Shown in pieces: positions 1-14,672 of a stretch of DNA of 15,137 nt. The notes under the pieces are model-generated. The model worked only from the letters and a program-made list of their open reading frames with translations, was not told where the DNA came from and made no database searches. This DNA is from Thermomicrobiaceae bacterium (lineage in GTDB: Bacteria > Chloroflexota > Chloroflexia > Thermomicrobiales > Thermomicrobiaceae): contig JAICWZ010000005.1 in assembly GCA_025966355.1 (NCBI GenBank), positions 1-15,137 on the forward strand, given 5' to 3'. Numbering within the stretch: position 1 is the stretch's first letter; every line of letters begins with the position of its first letter. The position numbers and the translations under genes were made by a program.

Positions 1-2192
1 ACCTCGCTTTCAACCGCGATCGAGCCGCCGTGTTGCTCGATCATTTGGCGGGCGATAAAGAGCCCCAGCCCGGTGCCACCGGCGGTGCGGCGTGCCGCCT
101 CGCTGCGAGAGAACGGTTCGAAGACCCGCGCCTGATCTTCGGCGCTCATGCCAATCCCCTGATCGCTCACCCGAATCGTGACCTGCTCATCGCGGCTTGT
201 CATGGCGACCCGGACTTCGCCGCCATCGGGTGAATACTTCAGCGCGTTTGAGATGAGATTGGTGAGCACCTGATCCAACCGCTCGGCATCCCACGTCCCA
301 CTGACCGGTTGGGGCGCGTCCAGCACGAGGCGATGACGCTCGTTTCGCTCCGATGTATGTTCAAATCGCGCCATCACCTGTTCTGCCAGCGACCGAAGTT
401 CGACCGGCGCCGGTTTGATGTTTGCCCCCTGGTGGTGCATGCGTGATGTATCGAGCAGATCGTTGAGCAGGCTTTCCAGGCGGATGATCTGTTCTTCAAG
501 ATTATCCGCCGACTCCTCGAAGTAACCCGGATCAAACTCTGGTCGACGCATCCGCCGGATGAGGAGTTGGACGAATCCCTTGATCGTCGTCATCGGCGTC
601 TTGAGTTCGTGCGCCGCCATCGAGAGAAACTGATCCCGGCTTTGAATCGCGGCCTGCGCCTCTTCATACAGCCGTACGTTTTCGATGGCGATCGACGCTA
701 TCCGCGCCAGTTGCGTCAGCGCCTGCTCATCTTCAAGCGAATAGTCACCTTCGTCGCGATCCGACACCTGAACGAGCCCGACATTCCGTCCATCGCGTCC
801 GACGAGCGGCACCGCGAGCCAGCCGCGCAGGGGTGGGTGCAGTTGCGCATACGAACCGTATCCGCGGAAGGCGGGATGCGCCGCGAGTTCGTCCTGTGTC
901 AGCCGGATCGGTTGGTTTGTGCTGCAGACGAGGTGATAGATGCCCGAGCCGTCGATCGGTGCGTCAAAGTCGCGCCAGCGTTCGTAGCGCTCGGATAACG
1001 ACTTCGCCGTGATCGTTTGTGCCCAGCTGTCGGCCGTGGTCAGGCTGATCAACGCCATATGCGATGTGGTCACGATACGCGCTTGCTCGGCGATCGCTTG
1101 CATGACGTCGGAGAGCGACTGTTCGTCGTTGATCAGCAGCGAGGCCCTGGTCAAACCAAGCAACTGCTCGGACTGCCGTTCCGCCCGGCGGCTTACTTCG
1201 CGGGCTTCATGGTAGAGCCGTGCGTTGTCGACGGCAATCGCCGATCTCCAGGCAAGATCTTTGACGAATTCAAGGTCGTCGACCGTATAGGTTCGTGATG
1301 ATTCGGCCATACAGAGCGTAATAGCACCAAGGATTCGGCCGCGAGCGCTCAGTGGCGCGATGATGATCGATCGGGGTGCGAGTTCTTCGAGTATTTGCAG
1401 ACGCTCGTCATCAAGATCGGCCTGTTCGATCAACTCGGCTGGTATCTCGGGGTAAAAGAGTGTCTCACCGGTGCGTAACACCTGAGCGACACCGGTCGCG
1501 GCATCGGGATCGAAGGGATAGCGTTCCTGTAACTGCCGCGCCCAGGCGACCTTCGCCGGGTCTGAATGGGCGACCACCAGATGCGTAACCCCACCGTTTT
1601 TTTCGACGAGTTGAACCGCGCTCCAGTCAGCGAGTCGTGGCACCAGGAGTTCGGCAACATGGGTCAAAGTCTCTTCATAATCGAGCGACGTGGACAGCAG
1701 ACTCGTCATTTCGGACATGAAGCGAAGCGTCGATTCGGTTCGCTTCGGTTCCGTCACATCGCGTAAGACGGTCACGACATGTTTGATAGACCCCTCGTCG
1801 TCGACGATTGGGCGGGCCTGAATATTCGCCCACCGTTGCTCGCCGGTGGCTCGCACGCGATAACTCAGAACAGCATCCGGCCGTGGCTCGCCACGCAGGG
1901 CTAAACGCGTGGGAAACTCATCGGCCGAACGCAAATCGCGTGTCGCGTTGAGAATCTCGAACCGATCTAGAATTTCCGCATCCGGTGCGTGCATGAGCTC
2001 TTCGACGCAGGAAAAACCGAGAAGCTCGGCTGCCGCGGGGTTGGCGAATGCAAGCTGATCCGCCGCGTTCCGCAGCAGAATACCGTCCGGGATGCCGACC
2101 AACGCATCGCGGAGTTGATCGCGCTCCCGCCGAAGCGCTTCGATCTCTTCCTGAAGTCCATTTAATTCCTGAGAATCCGTAGTGAGACCCAT
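1..2192 (-). CDS. PAS-GAF-GAF sensor histidine kinase (C-terminus cut by window edge)
   Basis: Open minus-strand frame of 730 full codons that runs off the left edge. It starts at ATG 2192, preceded by a GAGGT ribosome site four bases upstream (2197-2201). Order: short N-terminal helix, PAS domain (about residues 25-140, ending in a typical V-x-x-x-x-RDVTE), GAF 1 (about 160-330), GAF 2 (about 355-510), HisKA with the H-box MAAHELKTPMTT (phospho-acceptor His about 528), then HATPase_c with N-box NLISNALKYS (about 645), G1 DQGIGMS (about 673) and G2 GGTGLGLFIA (about 705). All catalytic boxes are intact. No membrane segment is visible, so it is probably a cytoplasmic sensor whose GAF/PAS domains bind a small ligand or sense light or redox state. 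Only a few residues of the ATPase domain should be missing, unless a receiver domain follows outside the window. No response regulator is encoded in the window. The class is certain; the signal is unknown. Confidence 0.95.
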   Translation of the reverse strand, partial: MGLTTDSQELNGLQEEIEALRRERDQLRDALVGIPDGILLRNAADQLAFANPAAAELLGFSCVEELMHAPDAEILDRFEILNATRDLRSADEFPTRLALRGEPRPDAVLSYRVRATGEQRWANIQARPIVDDEGSIKHVVTVLRDVTEPKRTESTLRFMSEMTSLLSTSLDYEETLTHVAELLVPRLADWSAVQLVEKNGGVTHLVVAHSDPAKVAWARQLQERYPFDPDAATGVAQVLRTGETLFYPEIPAELIEQADLDDERLQILEELAPRSIIIAPLSARGRILGAITLCMAESSRTYTVDDLEFVKDLAWRSAIAVDNARLYHEAREVSRRAERQSEQLLGLTRASLLINDEQSLSDVMQAIAEQARIVTTSHMALISLTTADSWAQTITAKSLSERYERWRDFDAPIDGSGIYHLVCSTNQPIRLTQDELAAHPAFRGYGSYAQLHPPLRGWLAVPLVGRDGRNVGLVQVSDRDEGDYSLEDEQALTQLARIASIAIENVRLYEEAQAAIQSRDQFLSMAAHELKTPMTTIKGFVQLLIRRMRRPEFDPGYFEESADNLEEQIIRLESLLNDLLDTSRMHHQGANIKPAPVELRSLAEQVMARFEHTSERNERHRLVLDAPQPVSGTWDAERLDQVLTNLISNALKYSPDGGEVRVAMTSRDEQVTIRVSDQGIGMSAEDQARVFEPFSRSEAARRTAGGTGLGLFIARQMIEQHGGSIAVESE

Positions 2193-2367
2193 CTGTACCT
2201 CAACATGCCGCTGCATCGACCATGCCGAATCGGCTGACCAGACCGACCATCGTTGGATGACTCGACGACCGCGAAGGCGGCAGGCGAGATGGACGCGAAC
2301 GAGGGGGCGGTTTCAGACCACTCGCGCAACAGAAGGATACGCTGGCACGGATTCTTTGTCGAAATCA

Positions 2368-2396
2368 TAGATAGCGGAGACGGCCCACATTGTCAA
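2368..2396 (-). promoter_or_regulatory. Candidate sigma70-type promoter for the histidine kinase
   Basis: On the minus strand a perfect TTGACA (plus 2391-2396) is followed after 17 bases by TATCTA (2368-2373), overlapping a better TATGAT hexamer (2364-2369) at a longer 21-base spacing. It lies about 175 bases upstream of the kinase ATG and points at it. The -35 is exact; the -10 is weak at ideal spacing. Confidence 0.35.
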
Positions 2397-2439
2397 GGAG
2401 TCTCGGACGCGGGCCGGGTGATCAAGCTTCGACGTTATC

Positions 2440-2471
2440 CGTATGGCCGGCTCACGCCTGACGGCCATACG
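2440..2471. repeat. Perfect 10-bp inverted repeat, 12-base loop
   Basis: CGTATGGCCG (2440-2449) and CGGCCATACG (2462-2471) are exact reverse complements around a 12-base loop. No T-run follows on either strand, so it does not look like an intrinsic terminator, and its place between divergent genes argues against that role. It could be a protein-binding dyad or a structured leader element. Only the repeat itself is seen. Confidence 0.6.
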
Positions 2472-2781
2472 CTCTATGTCACGGCGCCCGCCAAAATTTT
2501 GCTTCTCCGGCGACCTCGCGATCTCTCCCCTGGCCGGTATGAACCGGGTGGCGACACCTTAGCCTGCCGGTTGCCACAGTCTTGCGTTCCGCAGCGACGC
2601 GGCGTACGATGCACGTATCATCGCCTGGCCGAAAGGATCTTTCGTAGCCGACACTGGTTGCCGACTGTACCCTCTTCATCGGCTACTCGCGAGCCGAAGT
2701 CCGTTCGATCTCAATCATCATCTCTGACACGACCAACGCCAATATGCATGACGGTCTTGAACACTGATTGGGCGTGACACC

Positions 2782-4038
2782 ATGACGATCGACAGGCTGC
2801 AGGTGTTCATCTCATACGTGCGGACCGACGGTGACGTGGCGCGACAGGTTCGTGCCCATCTTGCCGCAGTCGGGGTGCGGACCTGGATGGATGAGTACGA
2901 CATCCCAGTCGGCGCCTATTGGCCAGACGAGATCGACAAAGGGCTGACCGCCTCCGAAATCGTCGTCGGTATCCTTTCTCCTGAGGCGATAGCGAGCCGC
3001 AACGTGAAGAACGAATGGGATTGGGCTATCCAGAACGACAAGCGCCTCCTGCTTGTCCGAGTCGCGCCCACCGATATCCCGCATCGCTACATCTCGATCA
3101 ACTTCATCGACGCAACCGACCCCGACCCAACCGCGGCGCTGGCCTCGCTCGTGGCGGCACTCGGGATCGAGCCGGTGGTTGATATTGCCACGCCACCGCG
3201 CACGGAGTACGCGCAGAGCGGGGAGGTCAACATCGCCTACCAGGTGTTTGGCGAGGGGCCGTTTGACCTGGTCGTGACTCCGGGTTTCGTCTCAAATCTC
3301 GACCTGATGTGGGACAATCCGCCGATTGCGCGATACTGGCGGCGCCTCGCCACCGTTGCCCGCGTCATCACCTTCGATAAGCGCGGCACCGGTCTCTCAG
3401 ATCGCGTCACGGATATCCCGCCCCTCGAACAGCGGGTGGACGATCTGCGGGCCGTGATGGATGCGGCGGGAGTCGAACGGGCAGCATTGATGGGGGTATC
3501 GGAAGGCGGGCCGCTGAGTATCCAGTTCGCGACAACCTACCCGGATCGCACACGCGCGCTGGTACTCTATGGCGCCGATGTTCGGAACCTCTGGGCGCCA
3601 GATTTCCCCTGGGCACCAAAGATCGAGGAACGGATTGCACGTGACGCGGAGATCCTGCATACCTGGGGGAGTGACGCGAGTTCCGACGTCTCGACCTTCG
3701 CTCCCAGTATGGCGAACGACCACGCGTTCATTGAGTGGTTTTTGCGTTTTTGTCGTGCCTCGGCCAGTCCCGGTGCGGCCGTGGCGTTGAGCCAGATGAA
3801 CCGTTCGATCGATGTCCGGCCCCTCCTGGGACAGCTAGACCTGCCGACGCTCGTCGTTCACCGCACCGGCGATCGCTCGAACCCGATCGAACTTGGGCGC
3901 TATCTCGCCGCCACGATTCCCGGTGCCGTCCTTGCTGAACTGCCGGGCGACGATCATCTCCCCTGGCTGGGTGATCAGGATGCCCTCTTCGCGGTCATAC
4001 AGGAATTTCTCACCGGGAGTCTGGATAGGCGCCGATGA
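2782..4038 (+). CDS. TIR domain-alpha/beta hydrolase fusion protein
   Basis: A 418-residue protein. Residues 7-95 form a bacterial TIR domain: VFISYVRTDGDVA at the first strand, WMDEYDIPVGAYW in the BB-loop region, and SRNVKNEWDWAI, where Glu78 is at the place of the NADase catalytic glutamate of active TIR domains. Residues about 140-415 are an alpha/beta hydrolase with nucleophile elbow GVSEGG (Ser240), acid Asp364 (TGDRSNP) and His392 (GDDHLPW), so the triad looks complete. The hydrolase part (EYAQSGEVNIAYQVFGEGP, FDKRGTGLSDR) resembles the clade commonly fused to adenylate/guanylate cyclase or LuxR domains, so it may be a ligand-sensing module with TIR as the output. ATG 2782 sits just before the first TIR strand; its ribosome site is weak. 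It ends 5 bp from the convergent neighbour. NAD cleavage, and any defence role, is inference; no other defence gene is visible nearby. Confidence 0.93.
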   Translation: MTIDRLQVFISYVRTDGDVARQVRAHLAAVGVRTWMDEYDIPVGAYWPDEIDKGLTASEIVVGILSPEAIASRNVKNEWDWAIQNDKRLLLVRVAPTDIPHRYISINFIDATDPDPTAALASLVAALGIEPVVDIATPPRTEYAQSGEVNIAYQVFGEGPFDLVVTPGFVSNLDLMWDNPPIARYWRRLATVARVITFDKRGTGLSDRVTDIPPLEQRVDDLRAVMDAAGVERAALMGVSEGGPLSIQFATTYPDRTRALVLYGADVRNLWAPDFPWAPKIEERIARDAEILHTWGSDASSDVSTFAPSMANDHAFIEWFLRFCRASASPGAAVALSQMNRSIDVRPLLGQLDLPTLVVHRTGDRSNPIELGRYLAATIPGAVLAELPGDDHLPWLGDQDALFAVIQEFLTGSLDRRR

Positions 4039-4043
4039 TCCAC

Positions 4044-6146
4044 CTACAGGAGTTCGGCGATGCGACTCGCCGCCCGTTGCGCTGCGCCGGGCACGTGGGG
4101 CAGGTAGCCGCTGGTGTCGGTATTGATCGTCGCGAGCATGGCGGCGGCGAGTGTTTCGGTGTCGGTGTCGTCGAGAGTGATGCGCTGGCCCGCCCGGTAG
4201 CGCTCGAGGCGATGGGTGACGTGGTAGACCTGCTCGCAGTGATCGCGTAAGGGGGCGTAGAGGAAGGGACGCCGGTTGAGCGTCAGTTCCATGGTGGTGC
4301 TCAGGCCGCCCTGGACGACCGCCAGGTCGCAGGCAGCCAGATGTTCATAAAGATTATGGATATAGCCGCGCGTTTCGAGCCGTTCGTGGCTCGGGAAGCC
4401 GGCTGGATCGAGACGCGGACCGGCTACGACGACGCAGCGAGCGTCGGGGAGTTCGCGGCTGACGAGCGGCCAGGCGTCGGCTGCCGTGTGCAGCAGTTTC
4501 CGGCCAACGGCGGTGCCGCCGGCGCTGATGAGGATGAGCGGCTGGTCGGGCTCGTAGCCGAGTCGGACACGCAGCGCCGGGCGGTCGGCAAGATCGGCCG
4601 GATCGAAGGGTGCGACGTAGCCGACCGCCTCGAAATGCTCGCGTGCCCAGTCGGGGATTTCGGGCAGACCCGGACCGAAGCGCTCGGGAACCAGATCGTC
4701 GTAGTCACCGATATAGAGCGCACGGTCGCGCAGGCGTGGGGAATGTTCGATCTGTTCGAGCATGTCGATGTTGTAGTCGGCGGTGAGGAGCGCTTCGCAC
4801 GAAGCGGACGTGCGATCGATCGGCAACCAGCCGAGGAAGTCGGTCAGAAAGACGTAGGGTGCCAGCTTGAGTTCCGGGTTCTCGTGCAGGAAGTAGTCGA
4901 CCTCCCACGCTTCGTCGCCGATCCAGAGATCGTAGGTGGTGTCACGCACCACATCGAGAAAGACCATGAAGTTCGCCAGCAAGATCTCATCCATATCGCG
5001 AAAGGCGTGGAAACAATGCAGCCGGTGCTCGCTGGCCGCTTGCTCCCAGTGGGCCGATTCGCTGGCGAGTAGCCGGCTCAACGGATGAATACGTTCGCCG
5101 GCTTGCGCCAGCACCTGGGTCACCGGATGCTGCGCCAGCCAGTCGACTTCCAGTCCCGGCACCTGGCGGCGCAGCTCGCGGGCGATCGCCAGGTCGCGTT
5201 GCACATGTCCCAGGCCGATCGGGCTGGAGATGAAGAGCGCGCGTGGCGGCCTGCGCAGGCGCGGCGGTCGCCAGGTGCGACGCTGCGGCTGCGCTTCACC
5301 GAGAAAGGCGTCAATCTCCGCATTCACCCGTACCGGCTGGCGGGCATGAACGACGTGCGAGCCGCCTTCGATGGTGATGAAGTGGAAATCGGGGCGGCGT
5401 TCTACCAACATCCGGCTCGTTTCGATGCTGGCGATCTCATCGCCGGTGCCGTGAATCATGAGCACCGGGCAGACGATGCGCGTGAGTACCTCATCCAGCG
5501 TGAGCGCGGGCAGTAGGTCGGGATTCGAGACGGTTTTGGTCAGAATCTCAGGCGTCGTCTCTCGCGCCCAGGAGATGAGATCCTCGATGAGCTTGGTCGA
5601 GTGCGGCTCGTTCGCGGCCTGGTTGAAGAAGAAGTCGAGCCAGTCGTCGTAGTGGGCGAGCCAGTAGTGCCCGTTCCTCTTTTGCCAGCCGTGATAGCGC
5701 TCCCGGCGCTCCCAAAAGGTGGGATCAGGGGTGAGCCTGATGGCAGGGAGGGTTGGTGCGATGAGACCGAGCCGATTCACCCGTTCGGGAAATCGCGCGG
5801 CGAACCAGAGCGCGAATCCACCGCCCAGCGAGAAGCCGAGCACGTCGGCACGTTCGATGCCGAGGTGATCGAGCAGTCCGATCGCGTAGTCGATGACGCG
5901 ATCGAACTCGAAGGCTCGTGCATCGAGGGTGCGTTCACCGCCGCCGATCCCCGGCGGATCGAACGTAACGACGCGACGCGAGCGCGCCAGATGCGCGATC
6001 TGCATCTTCCAGTGGCGGCTCGGCGCGATCTGCCACGACGGTAGGAGCAGCACCGGCGGCGCATCCGCATCCCCGAAATCCTCGAAAAAGATGTCAAATT
6101 CCCGTAGATGCAGCCGTCCCGATTGTCTCGGTTCGTGTGCGCGCAT
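4044..6146 (-). CDS. Alpha/beta hydrolase-glycosyltransferase fusion protein
   Basis: A 700-residue bifunctional protein. Residues about 12-285 are an alpha/beta hydrolase: nucleophile elbow GFSLGG (Ser106), acid Asp236 in HGTGDE, His264 in GGSH. After an Arg/Pro-rich linker (about 286-302) comes a GT-B glycosyltransferase of the MurG/UGT type: N-terminal loop SSPIGLGHVQRD (307-318), phosphate-binding ISAGGTAVGRK (540-550) and the donor-site signature VQGGLSTTMELTLNRRPFLYAPLRDHCEQ (about 611-639). I chose ATG 6146 because AAGGAGGGG sits three bases upstream (6150-6158). An in-frame ATG at 6182 would add 12 residues but has no such site. The start overlaps the end of the upstream regulator gene by 53 bases, implying translational coupling. 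Substrates are unknown. The fusion suggests one enzyme acts on an acyl or ester group and the other adds a sugar to the same or a related molecule; that is inference. Confidence 0.9.
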   Translation of the reverse strand: MRAHEPRQSGRLHLREFDIFFEDFGDADAPPVLLLPSWQIAPSRHWKMQIAHLARSRRVVTFDPPGIGGGERTLDARAFEFDRVIDYAIGLLDHLGIERADVLGFSLGGGFALWFAARFPERVNRLGLIAPTLPAIRLTPDPTFWERRERYHGWQKRNGHYWLAHYDDWLDFFFNQAANEPHSTKLIEDLISWARETTPEILTKTVSNPDLLPALTLDEVLTRIVCPVLMIHGTGDEIASIETSRMLVERRPDFHFITIEGGSHVVHARQPVRVNAEIDAFLGEAQPQRRTWRPPRLRRPPRALFISSPIGLGHVQRDLAIARELRRQVPGLEVDWLAQHPVTQVLAQAGERIHPLSRLLASESAHWEQAASEHRLHCFHAFRDMDEILLANFMVFLDVVRDTTYDLWIGDEAWEVDYFLHENPELKLAPYVFLTDFLGWLPIDRTSASCEALLTADYNIDMLEQIEHSPRLRDRALYIGDYDDLVPERFGPGLPEIPDWAREHFEAVGYVAPFDPADLADRPALRVRLGYEPDQPLILISAGGTAVGRKLLHTAADAWPLVSRELPDARCVVVAGPRLDPAGFPSHERLETRGYIHNLYEHLAACDLAVVQGGLSTTMELTLNRRPFLYAPLRDHCEQVYHVTHRLERYRAGQRITLDDTDTETLAAAMLATINTDTSGYLPHVPGAAQRAASRIAELL

Positions 6147-9100
6147 AGTCCCCTCCTTGCCCGGCATCGACGGCGCCGGCATCGAGGTTTTCGTGTTCAG
6201 CCAGCATTGACTGAATCAGTGATTCGAGGGAGAGATCGGGTTCGCTGGGGCGTGTTTCATCCGCTTCAGGTAGTTCGGCGTGCAGGCTGCTCGCCAGGCT
6301 GGTGGCCGCCGCGCCGCTCGCTGGATGCGCCAGCACCAGATTGGTGATACGAGTCGCTCGCGTTGTGTCGCCCGCGAGCATGGAGAGGCGCGCCATCTCC
6401 ACGAGGACATCGGTCGCGAGCGGGAGTGCATGGAGATCGGCCGCGATCCGGAGCGCCTGCACGAACCAGCGCCAGGCGGTCTCCCGGTCCCCCTGGGCTT
6501 GCGCGACGATTCCCAGCTGTGTCAGCGAGGTCGCGATGCCCCAGAGGTTGCCGATGGCCTGGCGCGTACGCAGGCTCTGCCGGTGCCAGTCCTCGGCGGC
6601 CGGATAATCGCCCGTCTGATAAGCGAGCGTGCCGAGATTATGGAGCGCGAAGGCGACGCCGCGCTGGTCGCCCGAGGCGGTCGAGATCGACAGGCTCTCC
6701 AGCAGCAGGCGCCGTGCCTCCGTGGTTTCGCCGAGCAGGTGCGTCACCATCCCAAGATCATTGAGTGAATAGGCGCTGCCCCAGCGGTCTCCGGCACGCT
6801 GGAAGAGCGCCAAACTCTCTCGGAGCAGCGCCTGCTCATGCTCGAATGCGTCGTTCGTGTGTGCCACGAGCGCCGCGATGTTCAGCGAAAAGGCGAGCTG
6901 CACGGGGAGCGCATAGCGGCGAAGAATGGCGATGCTCTGTTCGAGCGCATGGTCCGCCGTGTCGAAGGCGCCGAGACGGGTCAGGCAGGCCGCGTAGCCG
7001 GTCAGCAGCTCGGCATAGGCGGTCTCCTGGGCTGAATCGCGCTGAGTTTCGAGCGCGCTGAGGGCTGCTCTAAAGAGATCGCGCCATTCATCGAAGCGGC
7101 CGGTGATCTCGAAGAAGAGCCAGAGGGTGCGACTACACGTGCTCAATTCGCGGCCGAGACGCTGTTCAACAGCCCAGCGCCAGGCAACGCGAATGTTCTC
7201 GAGGTCGGTTTCGATCTCTGCCAGCCCGGCTTCGAGATCGGGCCCTTTCAAGCGCGCTTCGCAGCGGGTGACCAGGTCAACGAAATAGCGTAAATGATCC
7301 TGCCGCGCGCGGACATACTCACGCCCGCGGTCGCGCAGGGCGCGTTCGCCGTACTGCCGCAGGAGTTCATGCACGCCATAACGGCCGGACGAGTCGCGCG
7401 TGATGAACGACTTGGCGACCAGCGAGGCGAGTACCGGCAGGTCGGCGCTCGCCACGGCGACCGCCGCGGACCGCGTGATGCCGCCGCGGAAGAGCGTGAG
7501 CCGGGCAAAGACATCGCGATCGCGGTCGTCGAGCAGTTGCCACGAGTGGTCGAAGGCGGCGCGCATGCTGCGATGCCGTTCCGGGATGTCGCGCAATTCC
7601 GTGCGCAGAAAATCGAGATTGTTCTCGATCTCGCGAGCGATCTCGGCACAGGAGAGGACCGGTGTCCAGGCGGCCGCCAGTTCGATCGCCAACGGCAGGC
7701 CACCCGCAAGTGTGCAGATGCGGGCGATCTGCGTGTAGTCCTCCGCATTGAAGGTGCGGATCGGGTCGGCCTGGCGCGCCCGGTAGACGAAGAGGCGTAC
7801 GGCGCTGTATTCCTCGAGTTCATGGCTGGAATAGGCGGGTGGCAGGCGCAGCGCCGCGAGATGAAAGATCTGCTCGCCGTAGAGATTGAGCCGTTCGCGC
7901 GACGTCGCGACGATCTGAAGCGCTGGAGCCGCCGCCAGTATCTCCGAGATGAGCTCCGCGCCTTCGAGCAGATGTTCAAAATTATCGAGAATCAAGAGCA
8001 GTTCGCGGGAGCGTAAGGCGGCGATGAGTTGATCCTTCGGCTCCTCGGATCCATAGAACGTGACGCCAAGCTGTCCGGCGATGACATGTGGCAGCAGCGC
8101 GGGCGAGGAAACCCCGGCGAGAGGCACCAGACAGGCGCCATCGGCAAAGCGTCGCGCTTCTTGCTCGGCCAACCCGAGCGCCAGGCGGGTCTTGCCAATG
8201 CCGCCCGGACCGGCGAGCGTGATGAGCCGGTGAGTTGGGTCGCGTAACAGGCGCGCGAGCTGGTCGAGTTCGTACTCGCGACCGATCAACGCGCCGGCCG
8301 GCGCCGCGAGTTGGTACGTACGTGACCGCCCCTGGCTGCGTTGTGGCGCTTCATGATTTACCGGATCGCCGCGCACGATGGATTGATACAGCGCTTCCGT
8401 TTCCGGCTCAGGCGCAACGTCGAGCTCGTCCGCGAGAAGCGCCCGGCAGCGTTCGAACTGGCGCAGGGCACCGCTTCGATCGCCCGCCTCGGCCAGACTC
8501 CCAATGAGCGCGCGTTGGGCCGCCTCGTTGAACGGATCGAGATCCGTCCAGCGCTGGGCGGACGCGATCGCGCGCTCGGGGTCGTTCCGCTGCCGGTAAA
8601 TGGCGATCAGCCGTGCCAGCGCCCAGCTCAGCCGTCGCTCCAACTGTTCGCGCGTGACGAGCTGCCACTCGCGAAACGTCTCGCTCCCCGCCGACGTGAA
8701 TTCGGCCAGAAACGCGCCGTGATAGCGCGTGACGGCCTCCTCCAGTCGCCGGGCGCAGGCGGAGCATTCGTCCGGGTTTTCATGCGTGTGGTCTTCGCAG
8801 GCGGCGACGAGTGCCAGGAAATCCGTCACGTCGAGATCGTAGGCGGCGTGGTTGATCTGGATCGTTTCGCGATTAACCAGGATCAGGGGTGGCTCGGCGT
8901 GGTGCTCGTCCAGCGCGGCACGCAGCGTCGAGAGCGCCTGGCTCAGGTTATGACGTGCGGTCGTATCGTCTTGTTCCGGCCAGAGCAGCCCGGCGAGCGC
9001 TTCGCGCCGGTGCGGCCGATGGTGTTCAACGAGCAGGTAGAAGAAGAGGGCGCGCACTTTGTCGTACCCGAAGCCGCCAGCTGGTTCGCCGTTGAGCCTG

Positions 9101-9147
9101 CACTGGAATGGTCCGAGGAGCGATACCTCGAGTCGTGCCATGGTCAC
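6094..9147 (-). CDS. SARP/BTAD-NB-ARC-TPR transcriptional regulator
   Basis: A 1017-residue AfsR-like regulator. Residues 5-100 are the OmpR-like winged helix of SARP proteins (LLGPFQCRLNGEPAG, KVRALFFYLL, RREALAGLLWP, NLSQALSTLR). Residues about 105-255 are the BTAD helical domain. Residues 285-600 form the NB-ARC/STAND ATPase: Walker A GPGGIGKT (313-320), Walker B LLLILD (383-388), GLPLAIEL (483-490) and the winged-helix segment GVHELLRQYG (591-600). About 640-940 is a TPR array. ATP-driven assembly on ligand binding is known for related STAND regulators. The BTAD carries a C-x2-H-x-H-x5-C-x2-C insert at residues 117-131. GTG 9147 is preceded by GAG five bases upstream; ATG 9141 is an equally possible start. 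It is the first gene of an operon with the hydrolase-glycosyltransferase and is divergent from the tautomerase gene, so both are plausible targets. The inducer is unknown. Confidence 0.95.
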   Translation of the reverse strand: MTMARLEVSLLGPFQCRLNGEPAGGFGYDKVRALFFYLLVEHHRPHRREALAGLLWPEQDDTTARHNLSQALSTLRAALDEHHAEPPLILVNRETIQINHAAYDLDVTDFLALVAACEDHTHENPDECSACARRLEEAVTRYHGAFLAEFTSAGSETFREWQLVTREQLERRLSWALARLIAIYRQRNDPERAIASAQRWTDLDPFNEAAQRALIGSLAEAGDRSGALRQFERCRALLADELDVAPEPETEALYQSIVRGDPVNHEAPQRSQGRSRTYQLAAPAGALIGREYELDQLARLLRDPTHRLITLAGPGGIGKTRLALGLAEQEARRFADGACLVPLAGVSSPALLPHVIAGQLGVTFYGSEEPKDQLIAALRSRELLLILDNFEHLLEGAELISEILAAAPALQIVATSRERLNLYGEQIFHLAALRLPPAYSSHELEEYSAVRLFVYRARQADPIRTFNAEDYTQIARICTLAGGLPLAIELAAAWTPVLSCAEIAREIENNLDFLRTELRDIPERHRSMRAAFDHSWQLLDDRDRDVFARLTLFRGGITRSAAVAVASADLPVLASLVAKSFITRDSSGRYGVHELLRQYGERALRDRGREYVRARQDHLRYFVDLVTRCEARLKGPDLEAGLAEIETDLENIRVAWRWAVEQRLGRELSTCSRTLWLFFEITGRFDEWRDLFRAALSALETQRDSAQETAYAELLTGYAACLTRLGAFDTADHALEQSIAILRRYALPVQLAFSLNIAALVAHTNDAFEHEQALLRESLALFQRAGDRWGSAYSLNDLGMVTHLLGETTEARRLLLESLSISTASGDQRGVAFALHNLGTLAYQTGDYPAAEDWHRQSLRTRQAIGNLWGIATSLTQLGIVAQAQGDRETAWRWFVQALRIAADLHALPLATDVLVEMARLSMLAGDTTRATRITNLVLAHPASGAAATSLASSLHAELPEADETRPSEPDLSLESLIQSMLAEHENLDAGAVDAGQGGDYARTRTETIGTAASTGI
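6150..6158 (-). promoter_or_regulatory. Ribosome binding site deciding the hydrolase-glycosyltransferase start
   Basis: On the minus strand AAGGAGGGG lies three bases before ATG 6146, inside the coding sequence of the upstream regulator. It is among the strongest Shine-Dalgarno matches in the window and falls downstream of the alternative ATG at 6182, which rules that start out as the main one. Confidence 0.8.
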
Positions 9148-9192
9148 GTCATCTCAATGACGGGTTGGCTGTCCGATGAATCAGGTAGTTTC

Positions 9193-9221
9193 AGCATGGC
9201 ACAGCGACGCGCGGATTGCAA
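9193..9221 (-). promoter_or_regulatory. Candidate promoter for the SARP regulator operon
   Basis: On the minus strand TTGCAA (9216-9221), 17 bases, then CATGCT (9193-9198) with an upstream TGC giving an extended -10. It lies about 46 bases upstream of GTG 9147. A 7-bp inverted repeat ATGGCAC/GTGCCAT (9196-9202 and 9225-9231) brackets it and could be an operator, though arms this short occur often by chance. Confidence 0.3.
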
Positions 9222-9372
9222 ACAGTGCCATTTGATCAGCGAGAACGGCAACGAAGAACTACAGACCTACCGCTTTGATGATCTGTTGATCGTCTCTTGA
9301 TGACGCGCCGCTACTGTCTCTTCAAACGCTCCCGGCAACGCGCCGATGGTCAGGAGCGGTGTTGAGACAGCC

Positions 9373-9390
9373 GGCTCGATGATCCGAGCC
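9373..9390. repeat. Small dyad before the tautomerase gene
   Basis: GGCTCG (9373-9378) and CGAGCC (9385-9390) are exact reverse complements around six bases, ending seven bases before the ribosome site of the tautomerase gene. Possible operator or leader hairpin. Six-base arms are weak evidence. Confidence 0.3.
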
Positions 9391-9396
9391 ATGAGT

Positions 9397-9403
9397 GGAG
9401 GGG
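9397..9403 (+). promoter_or_regulatory. Ribosome binding site fixing the tautomerase start
   Basis: GGAGGGG lies five bases before ATG 9409, which is followed directly by a proline codon. The upstream in-frame start at 9346 would bury that proline inside the chain and inactivate a tautomerase. Confidence 0.8.
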
Positions 9404-9408
9404 CCGCG

Positions 9409-9651
9409 ATGCCGCTGGTTACGATCAAGTTGATCGAAGGGATCTTCTCCGACCAACAGAAGCAGCAGATGATCGAGCGCGTGACCGACGCCATGCTCTC
9501 GATCGAAGGTGAAAATCTGCGCCCGGTCACCTGGGTGCTTATCGACGACAGCGTTCGAAGCGGCGACTGGGGTATCGGCGGACACGGACTGACCGTCGAG
9601 GATTTCCAGGCCGTCGCCGCAGGGAAAACGACGGCACCGGCGATTGGTTGA
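9409..9651 (+). CDS. 4-oxalocrotonate tautomerase family protein
   Basis: An 80-residue protein beginning MPLVTIKLIEG. After removal of Met the N-terminal Pro is the general base of the 4-oxalocrotonate tautomerase superfamily, which catalyses keto-enol tautomerisation and related reactions as small beta-alpha-beta oligomers. The core LIEGIFSDQQKQQMIERVTDAM and the VTWVLIDD strand fit the family, and the C-terminal half (SGDWGIGGHGLTVED) is typical of the longer 70-80 residue members. The start is fixed by GGAGGGG at 9397-9403 and by the need for Pro in position 2. It lies 96 bases upstream of the FAD oxidoreductase on the same strand, probably in one transcript. The physiological substrate cannot be read from sequence. 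Confidence 0.93.
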   Translation: MPLVTIKLIEGIFSDQQKQQMIERVTDAMLSIEGENLRPVTWVLIDDSVRSGDWGIGGHGLTVEDFQAVAAGKTTAPAIG

Positions 9652-9747
9652 GCGACGACGATTCGCCGAGGTCGAGATGATGAATTTGTCTGTCAAATAT
9701 CCCAAATGCCGGCGGCTCGTCCGCTCGCACTCACAAAGGAACGTGAC

Positions 9748-11163
9748 ATGACCACAACACAGCCGAGGACCACGCAGTCAATCAATCAGGAGCAACTCGC
9801 GAGCCTGATCGCCAATATCCGGGGAACCGTCATCCAACCGACCGATGCAAAGTACGACCTGGCCCGCACGATCCACAACGCGATGATCGACAAGCACCCT
9901 GCCCTCATCGTGCGCTGCGCCGACGCCGCCGACGTGATGCATGCGGTGAACTTCGCGCGTGCCAATGATCTGCTTCTGGCCGTTCGGGGCGGCGGTCACA
10001 ATGTCGCCGGGCTGAGCATGTGCGACGGTGGCCTGGTCATCGACCTGAGCGAGATGTCCGGGGTGCGAATCGATCCGGAGCGGCGGACAGCCCGGGTTGA
10101 AGGCGGAGCGACCTGGGGCAAGCTCGATCACGCCGCCCATGCGTTCGGTCTGGCCACGCCATCCGGCATTATCTCGACGACCGGCGTTGCCGGGCTCACG
10201 TTGGGCGGGGGCTTCGGCCACCTCTCGCGCCACTACGGTCTGTCGTGCGACAACCTTCTGTCCGCGGACATCGTCACGGCCGATGGCCAGTTCCGTACGG
10301 TCAGCGCCGACAAGAACCCGGACCTTTTCTGGGCCATTCGTGGCGGCGGCGGCAACTTCGGCGTCGTGACCTCGTTCGAGTTCCGGCTCCACCCGGTCGG
10401 CATGGTTTATGGAGGCCCGATCTTCTACCCAGTCGAGAAGACCGAGCAACTCTTGAACTTCTTCCGCGACTACATGCGGCAGGCACCGATCGAATTGAGT
10501 GCCTTCTTCAGCTTCCACCAGGGACCACCGGCGCCGTTCATCCCCGAGCCGCTTCACTTCGTACCGATGGTGGCCATCGTCGTCTGCTATTCAGGTGACG
10601 ATCCGGCTCAGGGTGAGGAACTCGTCCGGCCGCTGCGGCAGGTCGCGGAACCGGCGGTCGACTTGGTGGGAATGATCCCGTATCCGGCGCTCAACAGCAT
10701 GTTCGACGCGATCTACTGCCCCGGGCTCCAGCACTATTGGAAGACAGACTACGAACCGAGATTGCTGGACGGGGCGATCAAAGTACACAGCGAATATGGC
10801 CCACAGGTCCCCTCGCTGCAATCGACGATGCATCTCTATCCACAGTCTGGGGCGATTCAGCAGGTCGGCCGAAGCGAGACGGCGTATGGCCAGCGGGACG
10901 TGGAATACGTTCACAACATCGTCGCGATCGATGCCGATCCGGCGAACATGCCCCGAAATATGGCCTGGATGCGCGCGTACGCCGAGGCGTTGCGGCCCTA
11001 CTCCGCCGCGGGTGGCTATGTGAACTTCTTAATGGCGGATGAAGGGCAGGAGCGCGTCAAGGCAACCTATGGCGACAACTACGAACGCCTGGTCGACGTC
11101 AAGACAGCCTACGACCCGACCAACCTGTTCCGGGTGAACCAGAACATCAAACCGAGAGGATAA
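9748..11163 (+). CDS. FAD-dependent oxidoreductase, BBE-type (PCMH fold)
   Basis: A 471-residue flavoprotein of the berberine-bridge-enzyme/6-hydroxynicotine-oxidase class. The FAD_binding_4 domain (about 45-220) has VRGGGHNVAG, with His84 at the position of the 8-alpha-histidyl FAD attachment, then GGATWG, GVAGLTLGGGFGHLSRHYGLSCDN and ADIVTADG, and WAIRGGGGNFGVVTSFEF. The C-terminal BBE motif YDPTNLFRVNQNI is present (about 454-466). The position that carries the second, cysteinyl FAD link in bicovalent members is here in PSGIISTTGVAG and has no Cys, so a single covalent link is predicted. The start at ATG 9748 is chosen for AAAGGA at 9735-9740; the in-frame ATG at 9706 lacks a ribosome site. 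No signal peptide. Such enzymes oxidise alcohols, amines or sugars using O2; the substrate is unknown. It is likely co-transcribed with the tautomerase. Confidence 0.93.
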   Translation: MTTTQPRTTQSINQEQLASLIANIRGTVIQPTDAKYDLARTIHNAMIDKHPALIVRCADAADVMHAVNFARANDLLLAVRGGGHNVAGLSMCDGGLVIDLSEMSGVRIDPERRTARVEGGATWGKLDHAAHAFGLATPSGIISTTGVAGLTLGGGFGHLSRHYGLSCDNLLSADIVTADGQFRTVSADKNPDLFWAIRGGGGNFGVVTSFEFRLHPVGMVYGGPIFYPVEKTEQLLNFFRDYMRQAPIELSAFFSFHQGPPAPFIPEPLHFVPMVAIVVCYSGDDPAQGEELVRPLRQVAEPAVDLVGMIPYPALNSMFDAIYCPGLQHYWKTDYEPRLLDGAIKVHSEYGPQVPSLQSTMHLYPQSGAIQQVGRSETAYGQRDVEYVHNIVAIDADPANMPRNMAWMRAYAEALRPYSAAGGYVNFLMADEGQERVKATYGDNYERLVDVKTAYDPTNLFRVNQNIKPRG

Positions 11164-11170
11164 GGCGAAC

Positions 11171-11236
11171 CGGCAGCTTCTACGCTATGCGGAGCCTGAT
11201 TGGTGCCCGGTCTATCTATGAGCGTAGAAGCTGTCG
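11171..11236. repeat. 16-bp inverted repeat with 34-base loop
   Basis: CGGCAGCTTCTACGCT (11171-11186) pairs with AGCGTAGAAGCTGTCG (11221-11236). The inner 13 bp are perfect, then one G-U pair and two more matches. It begins 7 bases after the oxidoreductase stop codon. No T-run follows, so a classical intrinsic terminator is unlikely, although the RNA stem would be stable. The right arm overlaps the spacer and -35 region of the candidate promoter for the next gene, so a dyad operator or looping site is also possible. Confidence 0.7.
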
Positions 11237-11245
11237 TAGATAATC

Positions 11246-11254
11246 TGCTATTAT
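11246..11254 (+). promoter_or_regulatory. Candidate extended -10 promoter for the DUF1326-DUF2182 pair
   Basis: TGC directly before TATTAT (11249-11254), a one-mismatch -10 with the extended TGn motif, about 48 bases upstream of ATG 11303. No good -35 is seen at 16-18 bases. The region is AT-richer than its surroundings. Confidence 0.35.
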
Positions 11255-11302
11255 GGGATGATCGTCGGCGGAGTTGCATTATGCGCTGAAAAGAGGTCCG
11301 CA

Positions 11303-11908
11303 ATGGTCTGGTCAATGGACGGCACCTATTTTGAGAATTGCAACTGCGATGCGATCTGTCCGTGCACCTGGTCGGGGCTTTCCCTGCCATCGACCCATGA
11401 TCGCTGCAAGGTCGTGCTGAACTATCACATCGACCATGGAGCGATCGACGGCGTCGAAGTCAGCGGCCTGACGTTCGCGCTGGTCGTTGATACGCCACCC
11501 GTGATGGTCGACGGAAACTGGCGGGTCGGCGTGCTGCTCGATGGTCAGGCGACGAGCGAACAGGTCGCTCAGCTCGGTGCGGTTCTCAGTGGTCAAAAGG
11601 GCGGTCCACCGGCCATGCTCCATCCGCTGATCGGAGAGATGCTTGGCGTCGAGCAGATGCCGGTGACGTATGAAAACGATGGCCGGCGGCATCGCGTGCG
11701 CTGGGGCGATGCGGTGAGCATGGAGATCGAAGACTTCTATGCCGGGCCGCAGCGGTCGCCGGTGCGGCTCGAAAACGTCTTTCACCCATCAAACTCGACG
11801 CTGACCGTCGGCACATCGGTTGGCACCCAGGTTGATGCCTTTGGGATCAACTTCGGCGAGACCGGAAGCAGCGGTGCATCCGCTCCGTTTTCGTGGAGCG
11901 GCGAGTGA
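11303..11908 (+). CDS. DUF1326 domain protein
   Basis: A 201-residue protein beginning MVWSMDGTYFENCNCDAICPC, the family hallmark: Cys13-x-Cys15-x3-Cys19-x-Cys21, followed by Cys35, His42 and His45. The Cys cluster suggests a metal or thiol site, but the biochemical role of this family is not established to my knowledge. No signal peptide or membrane segment is visible, so it is probably cytoplasmic. The start at ATG 11303 has AAGAGGT five bases upstream (11291-11297); an in-frame ATG at 11258 would add 15 unconserved residues. The stop codon overlaps the GTG of the following membrane protein gene (GTGA), so the two are made together. DUF1326 and DUF2182 genes are a recurrent pair, which implies a joint function. 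The C-terminal tail is rich in Gly and Ser. Confidence 0.88.
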   Translation: MVWSMDGTYFENCNCDAICPCTWSGLSLPSTHDRCKVVLNYHIDHGAIDGVEVSGLTFALVVDTPPVMVDGNWRVGVLLDGQATSEQVAQLGAVLSGQKGGPPAMLHPLIGEMLGVEQMPVTYENDGRRHRVRWGDAVSMEIEDFYAGPQRSPVRLENVFHPSNSTLTVGTSVGTQVDAFGINFGETGSSGASAPFSWSGE

Positions 11909-12678
11909 CAACCCGCGCGCTGGGAGAACGGCAATCGCTTCTTCCGGCGACGCTGATTCTCTCGATCGCGGCTGGCGCCTGGGCAGGCATCGTCATCTGG
12001 GCGCGCGAAATGGGCGTCGTGCCCGGCACGATGGGCATGACCGTGACGATCTTCGTCATCATGTGGACTTTGATGATGGCCGCGATGATGTTGCCTTCGG
12101 CTATGCCGATGATCACGCTCTACGCACGCACACTGTCGTCCAATCGCTGGCGCCGGATGTCAGCCTTCGGCGCCGGGTATCTGTTCATCTGGGCGGTTTC
12201 GGGCATCCCGGTGTTCGCGCTCGCCTGGCTCAGTGGGCGGGTTGCCACAAACGAGCCGGATCTCGCGGTCGGCGTGGCGGTGGTCATCTTCGCGGCGGCC
12301 GGCCTCTATCAGCTCACCTCGCTCAAGCATCGCTGCCTGCAACATTGCCGCTCGCCGCTGGCGCATCTGCTGCACTACGGGAATTACCGGGGGCGACTGC
12401 GCGATCTGCGAGCGGGCGCGCATCATGGCGCGTTCTGTCTCGCCTGTTGCTGGGCGCTGATGCTGCTCATGGTCGCCTTCGGCGTGATGAACCTGCTGGC
12501 GATGGTTCTCCTGGCCGCGACAGTCGGTATCGAAAAGCAGTGGAAACATGGCGCGGGGTTCGCCAAAGTCGCCGGACTTGCGGCGCTCGCGCTGGCTATC
12601 GTCGTCATTTTCGTCCCAGACCTCGCACCCGGTTTGCAGGCGGGCGGAATGGCGACGATGGGAACGATGGGATCGTAA
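11905..12678 (+). CDS. DUF2182 integral membrane protein, predicted metal-binding
   Basis: A 257-residue protein with about six or seven membrane segments (roughly 12-32, 45-66, 87-109, 119-137, 176-195, 196-209 and 222-237). Family signatures are MWTLMMAAMMLPSAMPM (53-69), SLKHRCLQHC (139-148) and GAHHGAFCLACCWALM (171-186). The His/Cys residues His142, Cys144, His147, Cys148, His173, His174, Cys178, Cys181 and Cys182 are consistent with metal binding. The chosen start is GTG 11905, which overlaps the DUF1326 stop as GTGA and has GGAG six bases upstream (11895-11898). An alternative GTG at 11893 would add four residues. The C-terminus is Met/Gly-rich (GGMATMGTMGS). The transported or handled metal is not known. 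Confidence 0.9.
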   Translation: MTTRALGERQSLLPATLILSIAAGAWAGIVIWAREMGVVPGTMGMTVTIFVIMWTLMMAAMMLPSAMPMITLYARTLSSNRWRRMSAFGAGYLFIWAVSGIPVFALAWLSGRVATNEPDLAVGVAVVIFAAAGLYQLTSLKHRCLQHCRSPLAHLLHYGNYRGRLRDLRAGAHHGAFCLACCWALMLLMVAFGVMNLLAMVLLAATVGIEKQWKHGAGFAKVAGLAALALAIVVIFVPDLAPGLQAGGMATMGTMGS

Positions 12679-12726
12679 GCGCGTCGAGCGATTGCACAAC
12701 ATGACCTAGACCAAGTGCTCCACTCA

Positions 12727-12824
12727 TGTCATCCTGAGCCGCAGCGAAGGATCTCCTTCTCGTATCCCGTGCGCTGTGCTCTGACGAACGAAGAGGAGAT
12801 TCTTCACTGCGGTTCAGAATGACA
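12727..12824. repeat. Large imperfect inverted repeat, dispersed 'GTCATCCTGAGC' type
   Basis: Two 36-base arms (12727-12762 and 12789-12824) around a 26-base centre. The arms begin TGTCATCCTGAGCCGCAGC and, read from the other strand, TGTCATTCTGAACCGCAGT, differing mainly by transitions. The unit resembles a class of intergenic palindromes I know to be scattered in several high-GC bacterial genomes, including Chloroflexota. It lies 48 bases after the DUF2182 stop and may act as a bidirectional terminator or be a non-autonomous mobile unit (MITE-like). No clear target-site duplication is seen. Confidence 0.75.
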
Positions 12825-12874
12825 ATAGAACGCTGCCACTGACTATCCGCCAATAGTGTACATTTGGGGCACTG

Positions 12875-12896
12875 CCGAGGCTTCTTGCAGCCTTGG
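12875..12896. repeat. Short hairpin upstream of the unknown signal-anchored gene
   Basis: CCGAGGCT (12875-12882) and AGCCTTGG (12889-12896) pair over 8 bp with one G-U around a six-base loop, ending about 20 bases before the ribosome site. It could be a leader structure. Low certainty. Confidence 0.3.
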
Positions 12897-12930
12897 TAAT
12901 CCTAGGGACGGAAGGTAAAGGAAGCGTAAT

Positions 12931-13584
12931 GTGGGTCAGCGCTTTGACCAGCGGCACCGAGGGAAGCTGATACTCATCGTCTGCTTGGCGGTGGCGATCG
13001 CACTCTTCGTTGCTGATCAGACGCTCCAAGCGAGTCCACCGTCGCCGACCGAACTGCCTGAAATCATCGCTAACAACGAAGGTGTGCAGCCCTCCGAGGT
13101 GCAGGTGCTGGCATATGAGGTTGCGCACGGCGTACCAGCGGTACTCTACCGGTTCACGGATCAGCCGTTTCGTGCTCCTGGTGGCATCGAGTTGCCGCAG
13201 CCACTGAAGGTCTCGCGGCTCGTTCATCCGCTTGGTCGCCCGTGGGAATGGACCGAAGGCGGTGGGTATTACGGCGGGCAACTGAAGTATGGCGCGGCTG
13301 CCAGCTTCGATCTAGGGAGCGCCAGCGGCGACACGGGAACGGTCATCAATACCATGGTGTTTGGGATGGCGCTGCCCGACGTCGCGGAGCTCCAATTGAC
13401 GATACAGGGCCAGCGTTACATCCGAGATCTTCGACAATCGGATGGCTATATTCTCTTGCTTCCTGATCAGGGTGTGACACCAGACGAAATCACGGATATT
13501 CGGGTTCTGGATGCCGCCGGCCATGAGTTGCCTCCGCCCAGGGGATACGGCAGCGGAACAGGCATTCCGGAGCCACAATCTTGA
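12931..13584 (+). CDS. Signal-anchored protein of unknown function
   Basis: 217 residues from GTG 12931, with AAAGGAAG at 12917-12924. A basic N-terminus (RFDQRHRGK) precedes a hydrophobic stretch at residues 12-28 that reads as an uncleaved signal anchor or a signal peptide, so the rest should lie outside the membrane. The body (about 35-200) has no motif I recognise. It is rich in beta-type segments and has a Gly/Tyr patch (GGGYYGGQLKYG) near the middle, then a Pro/Gly-rich tail (PPPRGYGSGTGIPEPQS). No lipobox: the only Cys (18) lies inside the hydrophobic run. Codon use and the ribosome site support a real gene. It stands alone, after the inverted repeat and convergent with the hydroxyproline dehydratase gene 18 bases away. 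I do not recognise it. Confidence 0.75.
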   Translation: MGQRFDQRHRGKLILIVCLAVAIALFVADQTLQASPPSPTELPEIIANNEGVQPSEVQVLAYEVAHGVPAVLYRFTDQPFRAPGGIELPQPLKVSRLVHPLGRPWEWTEGGGYYGGQLKYGAAASFDLGSASGDTGTVINTMVFGMALPDVAELQLTIQGQRYIRDLRQSDGYILLLPDQGVTPDEITDIRVLDAAGHELPPPRGYGSGTGIPEPQS

Positions 13585-13602
13585 TCGTGTATTCCAGGCG
13601 GC

Positions 13603-14667
13603 TCAACTGCTCCCATCCTCCAACAGAAACCCTCGCCCCAGCACGTCGTCCGGGTCGAGGCGGAATTCGCTGCGGCCGGTGATGAAGGCGCGGCCGCTGA
13701 CTTCGGGGATGATCGCGTCGAAGGTGCCGGTGCGGTCATGGCCGACGACGCGACCGGTGAAGACGCTGCCGGCGCCAAGGATGCTTTCGATGGCAATTGG
13801 CTCGCCGCCAGCGATCTCACCGCGAGCGTAATGCAGCGCCAGGCGGGCGGAGACGCCCGTGCCGGTTGGGGAGCGATCGACCTCGGCGTTGGCGAAGACG
13901 CAGATGTTGCGGCTATGGTGCGCCGGGTCTTCGGGAGGTCCGGTCAGGATCGTGCCATAGAGGAAGCCGAGATCGGGATCGTTCGGATGCTGGATGGCGA
14001 GCGTGGCGTTGACGGCGCGCTTGATCGCCTCACCGGCCGCTACGAGCCGCGTCGTATTCTCCGGTGTTACGGCCAGCCCGACGCGCGCCGCAGGCAGCAC
14101 CGCGTAAAAGGCGCCGCCAAAGGCGATGTCGACGGTGATCGTCCCCACCCCCACGCCCGGCAGGTCGAGGAAGAGATCCTGCGCGTAGACAAAGGACGGC
14201 ACGTTGCGGAAGGAGACGCGTTCGACGCGACCGGTATCGTCGATATGCGCTGTTGCGCGGACCAGACCCGCGGGTGTATCGAGATTGACCGGTGTCTCGC
14301 GACCGGCGATCGAAAGCGCGTTCGTCTCGATCAAGGCCGTCACCAGGGCGATGACGCCGTGGCCGCACATCGTACTGTAGCCCTCGTTATGCATGAAGAG
14401 AACGCCGAGGTCGGCCTCTGCGCTCACCGGCGGGGTGAGCACGCAGCCGTACATGTCGAAGTGCCCACGTGGCTCCCACATCAGCGCCCGGCGCACGCCG
14501 TCGAGCTGTTCGCGCAGATAACGCCGCCGCTCCAGGATCGTTTCGCCGGGAATCTCCGGCAGCCCGCCGGTAATGATGCGCAGCGGTTCACCGGCGGCGT
14601 GCGTTTCGATGGTGGTGATGACCCAACTCTCGTCGTTACGCGGCGGCCACGACCAGTTGAACGCCAT
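13603..14667 (-). CDS. trans-3-hydroxy-L-proline dehydratase (proline racemase family)
   Basis: A 354-residue member of the proline racemase fold. The first active-site loop is NEGYSTMCGHGVIAL with Cys101. The second is DRSPTGTGVSARLAL, where Thr268 replaces the second catalytic Cys of racemases and 4-hydroxyproline epimerases (DRSPCGTG). That Cys/Thr pair is the known mark of trans-3-hydroxy-L-proline dehydratases, which form pyrroline-2-carboxylate by loss of water. The THAAGEPLRI motif near residue 22 is also typical. Length matches the family. ATG 14667 starts five bases after the stop codon of the upstream metallo-hydrolase gene, with only a weak ribosome site, so translation is probably coupled. 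A pyrroline-2-carboxylate reductase, the usual next enzyme, is not in the window. Epimerase activity is unlikely without the second Cys. Confidence 0.9.
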   Translation of the reverse strand: MAFNWSWPPRNDESWVITTIETHAAGEPLRIITGGLPEIPGETILERRRYLREQLDGVRRALMWEPRGHFDMYGCVLTPPVSAEADLGVLFMHNEGYSTMCGHGVIALVTALIETNALSIAGRETPVNLDTPAGLVRATAHIDDTGRVERVSFRNVPSFVYAQDLFLDLPGVGVGTITVDIAFGGAFYAVLPAARVGLAVTPENTTRLVAAGEAIKRAVNATLAIQHPNDPDLGFLYGTILTGPPEDPAHHSRNICVFANAEVDRSPTGTGVSARLALHYARGEIAGGEPIAIESILGAGSVFTGRVVGHDRTGTFDAIIPEVSGRAFITGRSEFRLDPDDVLGRGFLLEDGSS

Positions 14668-14672
14668 TTTGC

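Follow-up and report, generated by a model that had tools for sequence, protein, structure and literature searches.

A TIR domain fused to a LipJ-type hydrolase: a candidate output-swapped sensor from a Thermomicrobiaceae bacterium

What does a TIR domain do when it stands in front of an alpha/beta hydrolase of the kind that usually carries a class III cyclase? The question is raised by a gene in contig JAICWZ010000005.1 of assembly GCA_025966355.1, from a Thermomicrobiaceae bacterium, and we have analysed positions 1 to 15,137 of this contig (the window, 15,137 nucleotides in all). The answer that we favour, with somewhat better than even confidence, is that the gene encodes a one-component sensor whose output has been swapped: the LipJ-family hydrolase would sense a small molecule, the N-terminal TIR domain would be the output that replaces the cyclase, and the ligand would switch cleavage of NAD+.

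The protein, of 418 amino acids, is encoded on the forward strand by a single uninterrupted open reading frame (ORF), from the ATG at 2782 to the stop at 4038. This is not a chance ORF, since 7,797 of the 7,996 candidates scored in a similarity search match it at E <= 0.001 (the relatives from this search are the best 120 of the 7,797). Pfam places TIR_2 (PF13676) at residues 8-123 (85 bits, against a curated cut-off of 28) and Abhydrolase_1 at residues 163-390 (54.5 bits, cut-off 25.8), confirming the fusion of a TIR domain to a cyclase-type alpha/beta hydrolase that a first-pass annotation had proposed from the letters alone. The best NCBIfam model for the hydrolase part is that of LipJ, NF058673 (221 bits, E 2.2e-65, residues 135-413), a bifunctional lipase/adenylate cyclase whose cut-off the window protein, having no cyclase domain, does not reach (221 vs 800 bits). 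No relic of a cyclase was found 3' of the stop codon in the region 4031-4900, where the best tblastn match has an E of 0.64. The AlphaFold2 model of the protein has a pLDDT of 94.9; as fold comparison of the whole model returned the hydrolase only, the TIR domain was folded separately. The hydrolase is predicted to have the alpha/beta hydrolase fold with its Ser-Asp-His triad intact, as in receptors of the D14/KAI2/RsbQ type.

For comparison we gathered 152 proteins (the query and 151 others, one of which, P0002, is nearly identical to it) by shared exact 5-residue words, a choice that biases the set toward conserved stretches. By phmmer these comprise 53 TIR-hydrolase proteins (the short forms), 60 TIR-hydrolase-cyclase-like proteins (the long forms), 12 hydrolase-cyclase and 10 winged helix-turn-helix (wHTH)-hydrolase-cyclase proteins, three hydrolases alone and 14 TIR proteins without the hydrolase. 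Homologues sharing the TIR-hydrolase order, which the annotation had suggested seeking, thus make up 113 of the 152, although some of the 53 short forms cover the hydrolase only in part and are probably cut sequences. Aligned to the query, 85 of the 113 show 46-86% identity, and 24 rows of the window's own clade stop 3-37 residues past the hydrolase. Few of these relatives are named, and those that are come from Thermomicrobiaceae, Thermomicrobiales and Chloroflexota bins, with one labelled Actinomycetospora; a search of genome contigs added one more TIR-hydrolase gene, L004, on a contig of 3.3 kb.

The residues to which the annotation had drawn attention, Glu78, Ser240, Asp364 and His392, are present as described and conserved in the relatives. 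Of the short forms, 52 of 53 keep Ser240, 44 of the 45 with a letter there keep His392 (eight have gaps) and 43 of the 45 with a letter keep Asp364 (two have Glu); of the 60 long forms, 56 keep the Ser, all 60 the His and 53 the Asp (seven have Glu). The annotation was also right about the kind of hydrolase, for, besides the match to the LipJ model, the relatives carry a cyclase, LuxR, wHTH, XRE or kinase domain on the same chassis. It is the same kind of domain as in the hydrolase-adenylate cyclases of the LipJ type (NF058673; PDB 1ybt, 1ybu), LipJ being the same protein as Rv1900c, and the cyclase of one hydrolase-cyclase relative, P0100, matches 1ybt with an E of 3.6e-48. These proteins have a cyclase, whereas the window protein has none and bears a TIR domain at its N-terminus.

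The state of the cyclase lends support to the TIR domain as an output. None of the 60 long forms keeps both metal-binding Asp residues of a class III cyclase, 17 keep one (such single matches depend on the alignment) and 43 keep neither, while both are kept in 11 of the 12 hydrolase-cyclase proteins, the exception, P0112, carrying a LuxR domain. An extended count added genome loci and took rows with at least 230 hydrolase residues (loci also above 200 bits), leaving out P0002 and the duplicate loci L001, L055, L031, L035, L009 and L010; L051 and L060, whose cyclases are intact, also stand outside it, and P0082 and L004 share identical hydrolase rows. In this count 123 hydrolase proteins carry a cyclase-like domain, and both metal Asp are kept in 0 of the 81 with another output domain against 42 of the 42 without one. 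The 81 comprise 61 with TIR, 10 with wHTH, eight with LuxR, and one each with XRE (L044) and protein kinase (L020), these last two domains having been assigned by Pfam after their cyclases were already known to be decayed; a Pfam scan of eight extended loci among the 42 found no further domain. The placing of TIR in the output position, as first proposed, is supported: the hydrolase is constant, the partner varies, and the cyclase has decayed when TIR is present (0 of 61 keep both Asp).

Some members of this wider family merit a note of their own. In the window's own family, L044:1114-2808 encodes an XRE helix-turn-helix (HTH) domain, the hydrolase and a decayed cyclase, so that a DNA-binding output occurs on this chassis there too. 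L020:4381-7371, from Minicystis rosea, encodes a protein kinase-globin-hydrolase-decayed cyclase protein of 997 amino acids. A hydrolase-cyclase gene of otherwise bacterial kind stands in a record titled Thaumarchaeota (L006), perhaps on a mis-binned contig.

A fasttree phylogeny of 173 hydrolase domains makes the window's clade (26 rows, support 100) sister to the long forms P0023, P0025 and P0029 (support 92), and in a more careful tree of 62 rows the short forms join P0023 and P0029 (support 96/82). Because the short forms nest with long ones, the short form would most simply have arisen by losing a dead cyclase. In the same careful tree the TIR proteins stand in several places (four changes), though the AU test does not reject a single origin (p 0.066).

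In the mechanism that we propose, the hydrolase half, with its intact triad, would bind an ester, lactone or lipid-like ligand, possibly hydrolysing it slowly. The N-terminal TIR domain would have become the output in place of the class III cyclase usual on this chassis, after which the cyclase would have decayed, as in the long forms, and finally been lost, as in the short form of the window. The state of the ligand, or oligomerisation driven by it, would switch self-assembly of the TIR domain and hence NAD+ cleavage, yielding nicotinamide and ADP-ribose (ADPR) or a messenger of the cyclic ADPR type. The outcome might be a messenger or plain loss of NAD+, and we favour the former because TIR takes the place of an enzyme that makes a messenger and of domains that act in transcription.

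Whether the TIR domain can be such an enzyme depends on its active site. By sequence alignment and the residue numbers of structural matches, converted by arithmetic, Ser11, Arg21, Asp37, Asn74 and Glu78 correspond to residues 140, 151, 167, 204 and 208 of AbTir. In the excerpts of PMC11374754, NAD stayed high with AbTir S140A, D167A, W204A and E208A, and R151A is described as inhibited. The first-pass placing of Glu78 at the NADase position stands, since it maps to AbTir Glu208 in helix alphaC, but that annotation had overlooked that the Trp of the WxxxE motif is here Asn74. Glu78 is invariant (127 of 127 TIR rows); in rows that have a letter, Asp37 is always kept (125 of 125), as is Ser11 (113 of 113), and Arg21 is kept in 58 of 113. 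Among features expected of an NADase, the catalytic Glu in helix alphaC is thus present and the WxxxE Trp absent; NADase activity, predicted from Glu78 despite Asn74, is likely, though not certain.

Several results weigh against the output-swapped sensor. The position of Trp204 holds Asn in 126 of the 127 rows and Asp in the other, so that the catalytic acid is kept in an incomplete WxxxE motif; the window TIR differs from the NADase TIR domains of AbTir, SARM1 and SPARTA TIR-APAZ in having Asn for this Trp and in its partner domain, a hydrolase. The predicted fold of the window TIR is matched by adaptor TIRs as well as by NADase TIRs. Furthermore, the association of cyclase decay with another output domain rests, on the tree, on eight changes per trait, but the well supported branches yield only two independent pairs, not enough to test it with a correction for kinship. 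The missing Trp is at least not rare in Chloroflexota: among 29 TIR_2 loci from Chloroflexota and three TIR loci from Anaerolineae, taken as controls (35 matched stretches, of unknown activity), 31 of the 32 that have a letter there keep the Glu, and 15 of 32 the Trp. Neither Trp79 nor Trp81 varies in the subfamily of the window TIR (127 of 127 rows), and it is a guess that they may form part of the TIR pocket.

The replaced Trp and the fold match to adaptor TIRs would suit a rival explanation, to which we give a modest chance, in which the TIR domain is a non-catalytic scaffold for self-association, or binds an NAD analogue, and clusters the hydrolase, an esterase or lipase that would be the real output. 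Conservation of the hydrolase triad in nearly all rows agrees with this, as does the naming of alpha/beta-hydrolases among effectors of bacterial conflict systems in the available part of PMC8195603. Such a scaffold would, however, need neither the invariant Glu78 nor Asp37, and the hydrolase stays the same across the family while its partner changes, as would be expected of a sensor. A plain bifunctional enzyme pair was rejected as a first choice because of this same constancy of the hydrolase beside a varying partner.

The output-swapped sensor also has parallels elsewhere. In a search of the TIR subfamily with the TIR domain of P0127 as query (best 120 of 166 matches), the window's subfamily is found, among the matches listed, also on AAA_16-TPR proteins. 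Across 37 TIR-AAA_16-TPR proteins of at least 1,000 amino acids (P0195 is labelled partial), the motif NVKNEWDW is kept in all 37 and a LuxR domain is absent from 35. Among TIR-less relatives (14 loci of the same order, 12 with a frame of more than 900 amino acids), LuxR is present in 11 of the 12, and Pfam finds it in five of six loci scanned, at the C-terminus. As far as sequence comparison goes, TIR here too occupies the place of a former output, in a second case that parallels the first. In P0133 the TIR domain is followed by a weak wHTH, BTAD and AAA chassis, and in P0194 by protein kinase and AAA_16 domains. TIR-hydrolase and TIR-AAA_16-TPR proteins come from contigs of equal size in two instances, P0009/P0181 (19007) and P0032/P0174 (5770), a hint that the two genes are neighbours there. 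It is possible, though we hold it as a tentative and rather doubtful extension, that one mobile TIR cassette acts as an all-purpose output for signalling, among Thermomicrobiales and bacteria related to them, on at least three chassis (LipJ hydrolase, AAA_16-TPR and SARP/BTAD), the cyclase or LuxR output of the first two having then decayed or vanished; sensing through cyclic AMP (cAMP) or transcription would have turned to an NAD-derived messenger, in ordinary regulation and not in phage defence.

Table 1. Features of the TIR-hydrolase gene and its neighbourhood (window positions)
Feature	Position	Strand	Remark
PAS-GAF histidine kinase	3-2216	-	
174-aa ORF immediately 5' of the TIR gene	2253-2777	+	no Pfam match; probably not a gene
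CDS, TIR-hydrolase protein, 418 aa	2782..4038	+	belongs to the 113 (of 152 compared) with TIR-hydrolase order
TIR_2 domain, residues 8-123	2803..3150	+	Pfam
Asn74 codon, position of AbTir Trp204 (WxxxE)	3001..3003	+	N 126/127, D 1
Glu78 codon, predicted NADase glutamate (AbTir Glu208)	3013..3015	+	E in 127/127 TIR rows
LipJ-type alpha/beta hydrolase domain, residues ~139-413	3196..4020	+	
Ser240 codon, GVSEGG nucleophile elbow	3499..3501	+	pairs with GLSMGG of esterase 4uhh
Asp364 codon	3871..3873	+	residue conservation and alignment to esterase 4uhh
His392 codon	3955..3957	+	residue conservation and alignment to esterase 4uhh
712-aa protein, N-terminal alpha/beta hydrolase (Pfam 74 bits), weak C-terminal match to glycosyltransferase family 28	4044-6182	-	
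SARP/BTAD-ATPase-TPR regulator, weak Trans_reg_C	6094-9147	-	Pfam

The surroundings of the gene (Table 1) bear on another rival, a stand-alone anti-phage protein of abortive infection, in which the hydrolase would sense a metabolite or lipid linked to infection and the TIR domain would deplete NAD+. Many TIR proteins are defence NADases, to judge by the titles of papers, and the scattered presence of the gene fits defence genes: the host genome (2.7 Mb, 79% complete) has the window's TIR_2 as its only match, and no TIR_2 was found in 20 other genomes of the host family. Matches to the protein at E <= 1e-30 occur in 57 of 400 Chloroflexota genomes, and in eight of the 61 genomes of the order, and in both samples only the window's own spans the TIR domain among the matches listed; at E <= 1e-95, only the window's own genome matches among 158 of the class. 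Against defence, no recognised defence genes stand beside the TIR gene: PADLOC, run on nine neighbours (12931-13584 excluded), matches two, hitting the ATPase part of the histidine kinase and the TPR and ATPase parts of the SARP regulator. With regard to the Thoeris system, the neighbours in the window (the histidine kinase, the hydrolase/glycosyltransferase-like protein and the SARP regulator) include no ThsA partner, and resemblance to ThsB is weak (best PADLOC ThsB E 6.5e-6; NCBIfam ThcB4 31.8 vs 220 bits). The G+C content of the region is that of the rest of the window, on which ground recent import, as judged by base composition, was also rejected. The chassis, furthermore, is a regulatory one that otherwise bears cyclase or transcription outputs. 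The defence effector suggested in the first-pass annotation is thus not borne out, and we consider it improbable.

Of the neighbours themselves, the gene at 4044-6182 is convergent with the TIR gene, 5 bases apart, and its glycosyltransferase match (19.9 bits) is below the cut-off of 22. A SARP-like chassis of the regulator's kind is also seen in P0133, there preceded by a TIR domain of the window's subfamily. In the window, the genes beyond the regulator are mostly metabolic. The last rival, an inactive relic of domain shuffling with both domains non-catalytic, could point to Asn74 in place of Trp and to the varying triad of some relatives, but is very unlikely, given that active-site residues persist even in relatives of about 50% identity, in the same proteins whose cyclase has decayed.

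Already known are TIR NADases, LipJ-type hydrolase-cyclases and hydrolase-HTH regulators. Regulators that join LuxR, wHTH or XRE to the hydrolase share the chassis, with the cyclase decayed or missing, but have a DNA-binding output and not TIR. D14/KAI2 and RsbQ signal via partner proteins, whereas the window's hydrolase is fused to a predicted enzyme domain. No paper on a prokaryotic TIR-hydrolase fusion, or on the cyclase decay that goes with it, was found among the titles and abstract openings listed from open-access full texts, and the term 'hydrolase' is absent from the available text of PMC7075850. The nearest precedents, in the accessible parts of their sources, are the MoxR-vWA bacterial conflict systems, in which TIR domains and cyclic nucleotide (cNMP) cyclases (some of them inactive) stand in for each other as producers of the signal (PMC7159879), and the HNL immune receptors of liverworts, plant NBS-LRR proteins with a hydrolase at the N-terminus where others have TIR (PMC3352924); those parts mention no single chain of TIR followed by a LipJ-type hydrolase.

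A TIR domain at the cyclase or DNA-binding position of an esterase-like sensor looks like a natural swap of cell signals in a soil-type bacterium. If this is true, TIR enzymes would join cyclases and HTH domains as exchangeable outputs of sensors for small molecules, and nature would provide matched sets in which one sensor has a cAMP, DNA-binding or TIR output. The ligands of LipJ-type hydrolases, and the roles of bacterial TIR domains outside defence, would then become directly testable questions.
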